Shown here: in pieces, positions 11,021 through 18,057 of the stretch | How the letters are laid out: each line of letters begins with the position of its first letter | Position numbering within the stretch: position 1 is the first letter of the stretch | Source: Chromatiales bacterium | GTDB taxonomy: Bacteria; Pseudomonadota; Gammaproteobacteria; Steroidobacterales; Woeseiaceae | DNA length: 36,606 nucleotides | Reading direction: 5' to 3' | Assembly (NCBI GenBank): GCA_004282875.1 | Contig: SHLT01000017.1 | Coordinates: 1-36,606, forward strand | Made by a program: the position numbers and the translations under genes | Notes under the pieces: generated by a model | Databases searched by the model: none | What the model was told of the DNA's origin: nothing | Seen by the model: the letters and a program-made list of their open reading frames with translations, nothing else

Positions 11021-11866
11021 CTATAAATCGGTCCTGATCGCGAACAGCTCCGGGAAGAAGCTGGTCTCGATGGCTTTCTTGAGGAACGGCACGCCCGACG
11101 ATCCGCCGGTGCCCTGGCGATTGCCGATGATTCGCTGCACCGTGTACATATGCTTGAAGCGCCAGCCCTGGAAGGCGTCTTCTATGTCGACGAGTTTCTC
11201 GGCCAGTTCGTACAGCTCAAAATATTTCTCCGGATCGCTGTAAATGGCGAACCACGCGTCCTGTACGGACTCATTGGCCTCATAGGGCTCACTGAAATCA
11301 CGCTCGAGTTTGTCCTGGTCGATAGCGAAGCCGACATCACTGAGCCGGCGCAACACGACATCGTAAAGGCTGGGCTCTTCCAGGACTCGCTGCAGCTCCG
11401 CATAGACTTGCGCGTCATGGCGATGCACCTCGATCAGCTTGCTGTTCTTGTTGCCCAGCAGGAACTCGAGCTTGCGATAGCAGTACGACTGGAATCCCGA
11501 TGCCGGACCGAGCGTGTCGCGAAATTTCAGGTAGTCGACCGGCGTCATGGTCGACAGAATCGACCACGACTGCGTCAGCTGCATCAGTATCAGCTTGACG
11601 CGGGCGATCACCTTGAAGGCATGACGAAAATCGTTGTCCCGGACGTTGCGAATCGCGGCCTCGACCTCATGCCCGGCCAGTTTCAACCACAGCTCGCTGG
11701 CCTGGTGAATGATGATGAAGAGCATTTCATCGTGCTGGTCGGAAAGGCAGTGTTGTGCATCGAGAATATCGTCGAGGTGCAGATACCGGCCGTAGGTCAG
11801 CCGATCCTTCAGGTCGGTGTGGATGCCCTTCTCGACTTCTCTGTAATTCTTAGGCTTTCGGCTCAT
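11021..11866 (-). CDS. kynA: Tryptophan 2,3-dioxygenase
   Basis: Haem enzyme that opens the indole ring of L-tryptophan to N-formylkynurenine, the first step of the kynurenine route. The 281 residues match bacterial TDO. H54 in IIIHQASELWLK is the active-site distal histidine and H239 in WRFKHMYTVQRIIG is the haem ligand; the substrate loop GTGGSSGVPFL (residues 252-262) is intact. The start codon overlaps the stop of the monooxygenase gene by 4 bases (ATGA), so the two are translationally coupled and the gene is the last of the kyn run. Confidence 0.95.
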   Translation of the reverse strand: MSRKPKNYREVEKGIHTDLKDRLTYGRYLHLDDILDAQHCLSDQHDEMLFIIIHQASELWLKLAGHEVEAAIRNVRDNDFRHAFKVIARVKLILMQLTQSWSILSTMTPVDYLKFRDTLGPASGFQSYCYRKLEFLLGNKNSKLIEVHRHDAQVYAELQRVLEEPSLYDVVLRRLSDVGFAIDQDKLERDFSEPYEANESVQDAWFAIYSDPEKYFELYELAEKLVDIEDAFQGWRFKHMYTVQRIIGNRQGTGGSSGVPFLKKAIETSFFPELFAIRTDL

Positions 11867-13227
11867 TGCCGCTCTCCAAAGCTTGCTTTGGCCAGCGCAT
11901 GCAGCTGGTCCATGACGTACTGCTTGTCCCAGTCGTTTTCGATGCCCGGCAGCCCCATGATTTTTTCCATGACCCGGTTCTGCTCATCGCCGACGCGCAG
12001 CGCTTCGGCATAGGGCACCTCGGGTGAGAACGTCACCATCGAGTACAGCGGTGTCCACAGGCCGGGATAGCGCGCGCTGAACTTCGCTTCGATCATCTTG
12101 CGAATCTGGAATCGCCTGTCGCCGGACAGGTCGCTCATTTCGACGAAGTTACGCTTGGACAGTTCGGCGATGGCATCACCGTTGGGTTTGCGCGCATTTT
12201 CATAGGCCGGGAAAATCGCGTCCCAGTCGTGATCGTGCGTCTCGATGAGCCGGTTGAGTTCGGCGCAATCCTCAAACCCGCAATTCATGCCCTGGCCGTA
12301 GAATGGTACGATCGCGTGCGCCGCATCCCCGATCAGCCCCACCTTGCGGTTGAACGACCACGGGAAGACCTGCACGAGAAACAGTGGCGATGCCGTCTTC
12401 TCCATGAATGTATCCACAGGGTTTTCGAGATAGTCCATGGCATCGGCGAAGTTGGACTCGAAAAACGCCTCGACCGCCGCTCGTTCCTGCAAGGACTCGA
12501 ACGAGGGTTCGCCGGAATGATTCAGGAACAACGTGCAGGTAAACGTGCCGTCGGTGTTCGGCAACGCGATCAGCATGAAGTCCTTGCGTGGCCAGATGTG
12601 CAGCGCATTCTTTTCTATTTTGTGTGAGCCGTCCGCGTTGGCAGGGATATGGAGTTCTATGTAGCTCTGCGGCATGTAGGTTTGGCTGTAACTGAAGCGC
12701 GGCAGGTTGTGAGCCAGGCGCCGTACTTTCGAATTCGCACCGTCGGCCGCGAACAGGTAATCGGCATCGACCGTGACCTCGTGTTCGCGGTTCACCTGGA
12801 ACACGGTACGTGCCGTCTCGAAATCAACGTCCATGAGCCAGTGCTCGAAATGCGTTTCGATGCCCGCCTCCTGGTCCGCAATATCAAGCAGCTGCTGGTT
12901 GATGCCGCTACGCGACACCGACCAGATGGCGTTCCACTCCTTGCCGTATGGAAGCGCACTCAGCTCTCCGTCAATCCCGTGGATGGCGCGGTGAAACATA
13001 GGAATGGCTTCGGACTTTGCGTCGGCCCCGATACCGATCTGTTCCAGCGAGTGCCAGCCCCTGTCCGACAGGGCGATATTGATCGACCTGCCCTGGTAGA
13101 TACTGGTCTTGCGAGAGTCAGGGCGGCCCTCGTAAAGGCCAACTTCGTAACCGTGTCGGCCGAGCAAAATGGCAAGCAGTGCGCCTACCGGCCCCCCACC
13201 TGCTACCGTGAACTTGCCGCGGCTCAT
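11863..13227 (-). CDS. kmo: Kynurenine 3-monooxygenase
   Basis: FAD- and NADPH-dependent hydroxylation of L-kynurenine to 3-hydroxykynurenine. 454 residues. The N terminus has the Rossmann FAD loop GGGPVG (10-15), and the mid region shows [18 protein letters not shown], the second FAD motif of aromatic hydroxylases with the kynurenine-monooxygenase [12 protein letters not shown] continuation. Start and end both overlap neighbours by 4 bases (with kynU upstream and tdo downstream), a tight operon. The presence of this enzyme shows that the pathway goes on to 3-hydroxyanthranilate and not only to anthranilate. Confidence 0.94.
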
Positions 13228-14513
13228 TTGGACTCACCTTCTGCCAACAACGCACGCATGACCTTGCCGAAGGTAAAGACATCGGTGAAGGAATTATAGA
13301 GCGGCACCGGCGCCATGCGGATCACACAGGGCTCGCGAAAATCGACGATAACGCCGGCTGCGATCATGTCGTCGAACAATTTGCGTTCACGCCCGGCGAC
13401 ATCCATCGAAATCTGGCAGCCGCGCTGCTCGGGCTCGCGCGGCGTGATAAGACTGGTCCGGGCGTCCGGGAACTCCTGCGCCACTGCATCAATTGTAAAT
13501 TCGAGGTAAGCGGTCAGCCTCTCGCTCTTCTCTCGCAGCGCAGGCATGCCTGCCTCGGCGAACACGTCGAGCGATGCCTTCATGGCCGCCATTCCGAGAA
13601 TCGGCACGTTGCTCAACTGCCAGCCCTCGGCGCCCTCCATTGGCTGGAAGCCGCTCTTCATCTGGAATCGCGTCTCCTTGTCGTGCCCCCACCAGCCGCC
13701 AAAGCGCGGCAGATCGAAGCGGCGGCCATGACGCTCATGCACGAAGATGCCCCCGACATTGCCGGGACTGGAGTTCAGGTACTTGTAAGAGCACCACGCG
13801 GCGAAGTCGACGTTCCAGTCGTGCAACCTGAGCGGCACATTGCCCGCCGCATGCGCCAGGTCGAACCCCGCAACGGCGCCCGCGGCGTGTGCCGCTGCCG
13901 TGAGCCGCGGCATGTTGAAGAGCTGGCCCGTGAAGTAGTTAACGCCGCCGAAAAAGACCAGCGCAAGCTCATCGGCATGCGCGGCGATCGTATCCAGGAT
14001 GTCCTCTTCGCGGATAAGCGTCTCACCCTCGCGCGGTGCCACTTCGATGATGGCATCGTCGGGATCGAAGCCGTGAAACTGTGCCTGCGTCTCCAGCAGG
14101 TAGCGATCCGACGGGAACATCTTTGCTTCGGAGATAATCTTGTAGCGCGTCTGGGTAGGGCGATAGAACGACACGAACAGCAGGTGAATATTGGTTGTCA
14201 GCGAGTTCATGCAGACAACTTCAGACTCCTGGGCACCCACAATGCCGGCCATCGTCGGGGTCAGGCGCTCGTGGTAGCTGTACCACGGATTGGTCGAATG
14301 AAAATGCCCCTCGACGCCATACTTCGCCCACTCGTCGAGCTCGAGCTCGACGGCGGCTTTCACGGTCTTCGGCTGCAACCCGAGCGAGTGGCCCGTGAAG
14401 TACACGAGGTCGGGCGTGCCGAGCGACGGAAAATGGAACCGGTCGCGAAACGCCCGGAGCGGATCGGCCGCGTCCTGCGCCTCTGCGAACGCCAGTGATG
14501 AATCAAACGGCAT
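13224..14513 (-). CDS. kynU: Kynureninase
   Basis: PLP-dependent hydrolase that splits 3-hydroxykynurenine into 3-hydroxyanthranilate and alanine. Taking the ATG at 14513 the protein has 429 residues, the usual size. K244 in [16 protein letters not shown] is the PLP lysine, and the FDLAHAAGN stretch (217-225) supplies the cofactor aspartate. The frame stays open upstream to 14618, but the extra 35 residues lie inside the dioxygenase gene and are basic and unlike the family, so the 14513 start (1 base after the preceding stop) is preferred. Its stop overlaps the monooxygenase start by 4 bases. Confidence 0.94.
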
Positions 14514-14514
14514 G

Positions 14515-15964
<1,450 letters not shown>

Positions 15965-15989: not shown

Positions 15990-17012
15990 TCAGGCGGCAA
16001 CCTCGGTCATTTTCGATCGCCCGACATCGAGCATGCGTTCGACAGCTGCGCGCGCGCGAACAGCGATGGCGGGATCAATTTCAATGGCCGGACTCAGCGA
16101 TTCGAGTGACTCGCGGATGTTGGCGAGCGTGATCTTCTTCATGTGCGGACAGAGATTGCAGGGACGGATGAACTCGACATCGTCGACGCCTGCCGAGACG
16201 TTATCGCTCATCGAACACTCCGTCACCATGAGCACCTTTGCCGGGCGCTCGTTAAGTACGTAGTCCTGCATCTGCGCCGTCGAGCCAACGAAATCCGACG
16301 TTGCGAGGACGTCCGGCGGGCATTCGGGGTGTGCGATGATCGTCAGATCGTCGTGGCCGGCGCGGAACGACTCGAGCTCCTCGGCCGTGAAGCGCTCATG
16401 CACTTCGCAGTGTCCCTGCCAGGTGATGATCTCCACATCGGTCTGTTCCGCAACGTACGCAGCCAGGTACTCGTCCGGCAGGAAAATCACTCGATCGCTG
16501 CCCAGCGACTCAACAATGGCCAGCGCATTACCCGACGTACAGCAGATGTCGCACTCGGCTTTCACTTCTGCCGACGTATTGACGTAGGTTACGACGGGCA
16601 CACCGGGATACTGCTCGCGCAGCCTGCGCACGTCCGCAGCCGTGATCGACTCGGCAAGCGAACAGCCTGCGTCGAGATCCGGCATCAAAACGGTCTTGTC
16701 GGGGTTCAGCAGCTTGGCAGTTTCCGCCATGAAATGGACACCGGCCAGGACGATGACGTCGGCATCCGTGTCCACGGCGCGCTGGGCCAGCGCCAGCGAA
16801 TCACCGGTGATATCGGCAACGCAGTGATAAATTTCCGGTGTCTGGTAGTTGTGCGCGAGAATGACCGCGTTCTTTTCCCGTTTCAGTTCATTGATCGCAG
16901 CAATGTGGGGCGCGTGGATTGGCCATTCGATATCGGGAATCACCTTTTTGACGCGCTCATAGAGATGCGCCACGTTCTCGATAGACCGGGGATCAGTATG
17001 GTTGACTGGCAT
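15990..17012 (-). CDS. nadA: Quinolinate synthase NadA
   Basis: 4Fe-4S enzyme that condenses iminoaspartate with dihydroxyacetone phosphate to quinolinate in de novo NAD synthesis. 340 residues. Probable cluster ligands are C117 in DAGCSLA, C231 in AHPECPPDV and C288 (or C285) in [20 protein letters not shown] (53-61) and [15 protein letters not shown] (141-155) are the usual substrate stretches. The ATG has an AGGTGA ribosome site 5 bases before it. It is the first gene of the minus-strand NAD cluster and diverges from the Nudix-type regulator. The intergenic region carries two palindromes and a promoter candidate. Confidence 0.95.
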
Positions 17013-17030
17013 GGTTCACCTGTACAATTA

Positions 17031-17047
17031 ATGCTCGTTTGGAGTAT
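17031..17047. promoter_or_regulatory. Palindromic operator candidate 1, nadA-regulator intergenic region
   Basis: ATGCTC-GTTTG-GAGTAT: two 6-base arms about a 5-base centre with one mismatch. It has the same design as the site at 17060-17076, 29 bp away. It lies 19 bp before the nadA start codon and downstream of the predicted nadA promoter. Confidence 0.6.
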
Positions 17048-17056
17048 ATATAGCGT

Positions 17057-17085
17057 ATTGTGCTCATAGAGAGCATAAATTTCAA
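17057..17085 (-). promoter_or_regulatory. Candidate nadA promoter
   Basis: On the minus strand TTGAAA (17085-17080) and CACAAT (17062-17057) are 17 bases apart. The palindrome at 17060-17076 fills the spacer and overlaps the -10, so a bound repressor would exclude RNA polymerase. Read by eye. Confidence 0.4.
17060..17076. promoter_or_regulatory. Palindromic operator candidate 2, nadA-regulator intergenic region
   Basis: GTGCTC-ATAGA-GAGCAT: arms of 6 bases with one outer mismatch and a 5-base centre, a near copy in layout of the site at 17031-17047. It ends 18 bp before the ATG of the Nudix-type regulator, so it could also serve autoregulation. Confidence 0.65.
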
Positions 17086-17094
17086 CAGTTTCCT

Positions 17095-18057
17095 ATGAAA
17101 GAGACCGAGACACTGGTTGACCTGCTGGGCGTAATCGTCGCCGTGACCGACGGCGCGCCGCGCGTCCTCGTGGTCGACAGAAACGACCAGATCGCGCTAC
17201 CGCATGGGCCGTTCGTCCCGGCTGATCACGCGAGTCTTGAAGAGGGCTTCCGCCAGCTGATCGAGGCACAGGCGGGGCTGGACCTGTTCTATATCGAACA
17301 GCTGTACACCTTTGGCAATCGGTTCCGAACCGTGGACGAAATCGACGGCGGTCCGCGGACCCTGTCAGTCGCCTACGTTGCACTGGCCCGCGAAGACGCC
17401 GTGCCCCTCGACGGTACGCGATGGGCCAACTGCTACGACTTCCTGCCATGGGAAGACTGGCGTAACGGGCGACCGGATGAGCTGGACTCGCTGATTGCGC
17501 CACGGCTCAAGGAATGGTGTGCGAAGACGCGTGCCCCGACCACGAGGCGCAATCGCGAGGAACGCATCAACGTCACCTTCGGGCATCCCGGTGAGACCGA
17601 AATGGATGCGGTGCTGACGCTCGAACGACTGGAATTACTCTACGATGCCGACATCATGGCGGAGTCCGAGCGCGACCAGCGTGCGATCGACGGAAAATCC
17701 GCGGCGCCCGCTGCAACCAACATCGGCGCCCCGATGGCGTCGGATCATCGCCGCGTCCTGGCCACGGCACTGGGCCGCATTCGCGGCAAACTCGCGTACA
17801 GGCCGGTGGTGTTCGAACTGCTGCCGGGCGAGTTCACCCTGTTGCAGTTGCAGCAGGTCGCCGAAGCGCTGAGCGGAACTCACCTGCATAAACAGAACTT
17901 CCGCCGCCTCGTCATGCATGCCAATCTCGTCGAACCGATAGGCCGGACAACGGCGGTCGGTCGCGGCCGTCCAGCCGAACTGTTCCGCTTCCGGCGCGAA
18001 GTGTTGGGGGAAAAACTTACCGTGGGATTGTCACGGCCAATCCTGCGCGGCGACTAG
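17095..18057 (+). CDS. Nudix-winged-helix regulator of NAD synthesis, NrtR/NadQ type
   Basis: Predicted repressor of the divergent nadA cluster. 320 residues: an N-terminal Nudix-like domain (about 5-145) and a C-terminal winged helix (about 235-310) with FELLPGEFTLLQLQQVAEAL, HKQNFRRLV and GRGRPAELFRFR, the pattern of NrtR. The Nudix box is decayed: where GX5EX7REUXEEXGU is expected, the protein has GPFVPADHASLEEGF followed by RQLIEAQAGL, so several metal-binding glutamates are missing and hydrolysis is unlikely; NrtR proteins use this fold to sense ADP-ribose or related metabolites. It is about 90 residues longer than common NrtR because of a linker at about 150-230, which is closer to the alphaproteobacterial NadQ type. 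Function is inferred from family and place, not shown. Confidence 0.82.
   Translation: MKETETLVDLLGVIVAVTDGAPRVLVVDRNDQIALPHGPFVPADHASLEEGFRQLIEAQAGLDLFYIEQLYTFGNRFRTVDEIDGGPRTLSVAYVALAREDAVPLDGTRWANCYDFLPWEDWRNGRPDELDSLIAPRLKEWCAKTRAPTTRRNREERINVTFGHPGETEMDAVLTLERLELLYDADIMAESERDQRAIDGKSAAPAATNIGAPMASDHRRVLATALGRIRGKLAYRPVVFELLPGEFTLLQLQQVAEALSGTHLHKQNFRRLVMHANLVEPIGRTTAVGRGRPAELFRFRREVLGEKLTVGLSRPILRGD

Follow-up and report, generated by a model that had tools for sequence, protein, structure and literature searches.

A probable double NadQ operator upstream of nadA, with kynurenine genes behind it

Two palindromes between nadA and a divergently transcribed regulator gene very probably form a double operator for that regulator, the putative repressor NadQ. 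The locus lies in a window of 36,606 nucleotides, the whole stretch of Chromatiales DNA analysed here (contig SHLT01000017.1). The palindromes carry the NadQ motif, are conserved and sit on a predicted promoter, and the regulator is a member of the NadQ family. Regulator, motif and ATP response have already been published; the operator adds one more case to a described type, and its presence here is no surprise. Its interest is that the palindromes can be assigned to a known regulon, and that the relatives document, in a clean comparison, a two-site NadQ operator whose spacing is free. The less ordinary part of the locus is the set of kynurenine genes behind nadA.

Both palindromes, which a preliminary description had reported from the bare sequence, are indeed present. 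Site 1 (17031..17047, ATGCTC-GTTTG-GAGTAT) and site 2 (17060..17076, GTGCTC-ATAGA-GAGCAT) are centred at 17039 and 17068, 29 bp apart, and both fall within the 82-bp gap between nadA and nadQ (17013-17094). Their arms are identical at 10 of 12 positions, and each palindrome has one imperfect pair among its six (the third pair in site 1, the outer pair in site 2). The published NadQ motif is ttATRCTCannntGAGYATaa, with nadABC as the core targets (PMC5343134). Scored against the 12 fixed positions of its core, ATRCTC-N5-GAGYAT, site 1 matches at 12/12 and site 2 at 11/12. Site 1 is the single exact match to this core in the 3.39-Mb assembly, and nothing else in the 36.6-kb window reaches 11/12 or better. 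Two sites of at least 11/12 occurred in none of 1,000,000 Markov sequences of 82 nt. A pair of like 6-5-6 palindromes of any sequence, a layout fixed post hoc, occurred in about 172 per million; the bare two-palindrome pattern is thus less rare, and the case rests on the known motif and its conservation. A wider NadQ regulon in this genome was considered and set aside. No site was found near nadC, which sits apart from the nadA locus, and each of the 13 one-mismatch genomic matches that we inspected falls in a frame free of stops for 113-628 codons, as chance hits in coding DNA would.

The product of nadQ (17095..18057, plus strand, 320 aa) aligns over residues 9-318 with PDB 7q91, ‘NADQ transcription factor’ (phmmer, E 9.4e-69), and this match to a protein of solved structure is enough to place the divergent regulator in the NadQ family. 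The only Pfam match is a C-terminal NrtR/AraR-type winged helix (PF21906, E 1e-21), in which an HKQNFRR segment is invariant in nine relatives and is found in 7q91 as well. Pfam detects no Nudix domain at E 0.001. Where the Nudix box (GX5EX7REUXEEXGU) would be, the protein reads RQLIEAQAGL, with the catalytic glutamates replaced as judged by eye, which makes a working hydrolase unlikely. The preliminary name of ‘Nudix regulator’ needs correction: the match to 7q91 over nearly the full length indicates a NadQ with a degenerate Nudix-like domain, but not a member of the ADP-ribose-responsive NrtR family. NrtR itself was rejected as an identity, the NF050029 equivalog model scoring 63.9 bits against a cut-off of 400 and matching the winged helix only. 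NrtR (Nudix-related NAD regulator) has a homologous C-terminal winged helix and a role in NAD control, but differs from the NadQ of the window in N-terminal domain, motif and published effector.

NadQ (COG4111) is described from alphaproteobacteria, and from some beta- and gammaproteobacteria, as a regulator of NAD synthesis (Leyn 2016, PMC5343134). Its published effector is ATP, to judge by the title of Minazzato 2022 (doi 10.1016/j.jsb.2022.107917), cited in PMC12421817. The window resembles the described system (PMC5343134; PDB 7q91-7q94) in regulator family, palindromic motif, nadA target and the position of nadQ near NAD genes; conserved palindromes scoring 12/12 and 11/12 upstream of nadA are what a cognate NadQ operator would look like. 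By contrast, the window has nadX in the place of nadB, followed by kynurenine genes, has nadC elsewhere without a site, and carries two sites at 29 bp.

Conservation is, among these sequence comparisons, the strongest evidence that the palindromes are real. Our sample comprised 35 divergent nadQ|nadA loci, including that of the window, from one NadQ clade made up of the window's family and one genome each of two neighbouring families (f2 and f9). In all 35, both sites are present, each scoring 11 or 12 of 12, with CTC and GAG invariant. The proposal that these palindromes are a two-site operator for the divergent regulator, for which conservation upstream of nadA orthologues had been named as the test, thus gains support from the clade as well as from the published motif. 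In the more distant family f12, two divergent loci show a single site (11/12), and another distant divergent locus, L219, has no NadQ site; a double site is thus no general requirement of NadQ control. In other families the two genes are co-directional, nadQ coming first, and the interval between them contains one site or two, often a single one. Among 80 loci from named genomes, mostly of alphaproteobacteria and six of them from the window's NadQ clade, a site was found within the fetched stretch in 51 and a pair within 60 bp in 16; tandem sites are thus not peculiar to the window's family. Five loci of alphaproteobacteria and others (L215, L226, L263, L216 and L208) have paired NadQ-like sites 26-32 or about 57-64 bp apart, the latter roughly double the former. 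Among 19 related genomes (family or order) that lack a full NadQ, most of them near complete, 18 also lack nadA and presumably salvage NAD precursors; the one that retains nadA has no site upstream of it.

The distance between the sites bears on how they might act together. The preliminary description had taken 29 bp, close to three helical turns, as a cue for cooperative binding, and a rigid operator of this kind would place two dimers on the same helix face three turns apart. The sites are always kept together in the clade, and 29 bp in the window corresponds to 2.8 turns. The centre spacings in the 35 loci, however, range from 23 to 32 bp and are mostly 24 bp (15 loci) or 25 bp (10), the others being 30 bp (three), 29 and 32 bp (two each) and 23, 26 and 28 bp (one each). 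Even within the window's own lineage spacings of 24, 26, 28, 29, 30 and 32 bp occur, so helical phase is not kept among close kin, and alphaproteobacterial pairs stand 26-36 or about 57-64 bp apart. The cue therefore fails, and we regard rigid, phase-dependent cooperativity as improbable. Flexible cooperativity between the two sites is possible.

The overlap of site 2 with a predicted nadA promoter was borne out. A minus-strand TTGAAA-17-CACAAT (17085..17057) matches the consensus at 9/12, a score that is not above chance by itself (1 found versus 0.7 expected). Close relatives carry TTGAAC-17-CATAAT or similar at the same place, and relatives that bear nadB have TTGACA there, with an ambiguous -10 at a distance of either 17 or 20 bp. 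In the window, site 2 occupies the spacer of the predicted promoter and overlaps its -10; site 1 begins 9 bp downstream of the predicted -10, at about the expected start of the nadA transcript. Sites so placed on the predicted promoter are laid out as a repressor operator would be. Since the two also stand immediately upstream of nadQ, autoregulation is likely.

We infer the following course of control. A single NadQ dimer would occupy each site by means of its two winged helices. RNA polymerase would be blocked by NadQ at site 2, which sits between the -35 and -10 elements, and at site 1, past the -10 and over the expected start; NadQ would probably repress its own gene as well. The effector, ATP according to the published title, would loosen NadQ from the DNA. 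On release, nadA-nadX and perhaps the kynurenine genes behind them would be transcribed, yielding quinolinate for NAD.

A doubtful alternative to joint action is a division of the palindromes between the two promoters, with nadA served by site 2 (or by both sites) and nadQ by the other one. This would account for the constancy of double sites in the divergent clade and for the frequency of single sites where nadQ and nadA run in the same direction. Both sites, however, crowd the nadA promoter, and some same-direction alphaproteobacterial nadQ/nadA loci also carry pairs, which a nadQ promoter cannot explain in that orientation. It is far less credible that the palindromes act as RNA stem-loops, as an attenuator or leader element, rather than as protein sites. 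The plus-strand transcript of both sites does fold better than its shuffles (z -2.6), but that value is also expected simply from two palindromes with like arms, and the minus-strand leader folds no better than shuffles (z 0.97 and -0.14). Moreover, hardly a letter of the arms varies across the 35 loci, and the compensatory changes that a stem would tolerate are missing; the nadA transcript, too, is expected to start downstream of site 2.

The putative operon under this predicted double operator runs along the minus strand. Its first gene is nadA, encoding quinolinate synthase (15990..17012; PF02445, E 7e-115; equivalog models over cut-off), followed after 25 bp by nadX, encoding aspartate dehydrogenase (15167..15964; PF01958; NF009827/NF009828 over cut-off). 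After a further 91 bp come the genes for 3-hydroxyanthranilate 3,4-dioxygenase (HAO; 14515..15075; TIGR03037 and NF009763 over cut-off), kynureninase (13224..14513; TIGR01814 over cut-off), an FAD-dependent monooxygenase that is most likely kynurenine 3-monooxygenase (KMO; 11863..13227; PF01494) and tryptophan 2,3-dioxygenase (TDO; 11021..11866; PF03301, E 7e-70; TIGR03036 at 385.6 bits, just under its cut-off of 390.7). The product of 11863..13227 matches no KMO equivalog model and takes its name from its place among the kynurenine genes. From HAO to TDO, neighbouring genes are separated by a 1-base gap or overlap. No nadB scores over cut-off in the window's genome, and nadX probably stands in for it. 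With nadX and the kynurenine genes behind nadA in one direction, both known routes to quinolinate seem to share an operon. A KynB-type formamidase was found neither in the G000 assembly (86% complete) nor in most relatives with the other kynurenine genes; the tryptophan route is thus incomplete as annotated, unless another hydrolase serves.

G021, G006 and G219 have the same HAO-kynureninase-KMO-TDO run behind their NadQ operators; so does G151, except that no TDO was detected. In the NadQ tree, the kynurenine-carrying loci fall within a clade of 12 rows (support 100/100) whose inner branches are weak. No nadB passes the curated cut-off anywhere in this 12-row clade, several assemblies of which are incomplete; nadA-nadB is found in many relatives beyond it. 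Two members of the clade, G113 and G105, nest among nadX-bearing rows and carry, between nadA and HAO, an intact LysR-type gene that is divergent from HAO; its orthologue is absent from G000, G021, G006 and G151. In G065, the LysR-type gene (L040:12338-13221) looks as though it is decaying, with its match split into three and an in-frame stop. Outside the clade, G072 carries LysR|HAO-kynureninase-KMO-TDO-nadX at an unlinked locus with no NadQ sites near the cluster, and the kynurenine clusters of G133, G160, G195 and G172 are unlinked as well. The LysR-linked clusters of G113, G105 and G072 thus have the same gene order as the window, but differ in their divergent LysR-type gene and, in G072, in being unlinked to nadQ. 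In G205 (L166:6457-10666), the gene directly after nadA-nadX is that for kynureninase. HAO, KMO and TDO were not detected there, and HAO was not found in the whole genome.

Because close relatives keep the kynurenine genes behind a separate LysR-type regulator, the NadQ promoter may have captured the cluster in the window's lineage. One plausible history is that the cluster arrived beside nadA, was left without its regulator and fell to the NadQ promoter, nadX serving in place of nadB. We put at even chances the full proposition that NadQ took over the kynurenine pathway, with nadB gone, LysR lost and a single operon joining the aspartate and tryptophan routes to quinolinate. Somewhat less probable is a NadQ operon that ends after nadX, with HAO-kynureninase-KMO-TDO transcribed from a separate promoter within the 91-bp gap, outside NadQ control. 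The divergent LysR-type gene ahead of these genes in G113 and G105 points that way, as does the length of the gap in the window, which exceeds the roughly 50 bp of G151 and G219. The missing LysR orthologue in the four genomes named above argues against it, however, as do the failure to find a sigma-70-like promoter or terminator in the 91-bp gap and the co-directional run of all the genes, with short gaps or overlaps.

Should nadA and the kynurenine genes share a transcript, the locus would show the repressor of a cofactor pathway gaining control of a pathway for amino-acid degradation. In the literature available to this analysis, no report was found that treats kynurenine genes together with nadA, nadX and aspartate dehydrogenase. 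Possible intermediate stages of the takeover, with the LysR-type gene intact in some and broken in another, are visible in living relatives. The relatives of the window's lineage also include a MAG labelled Woeseiaceae.
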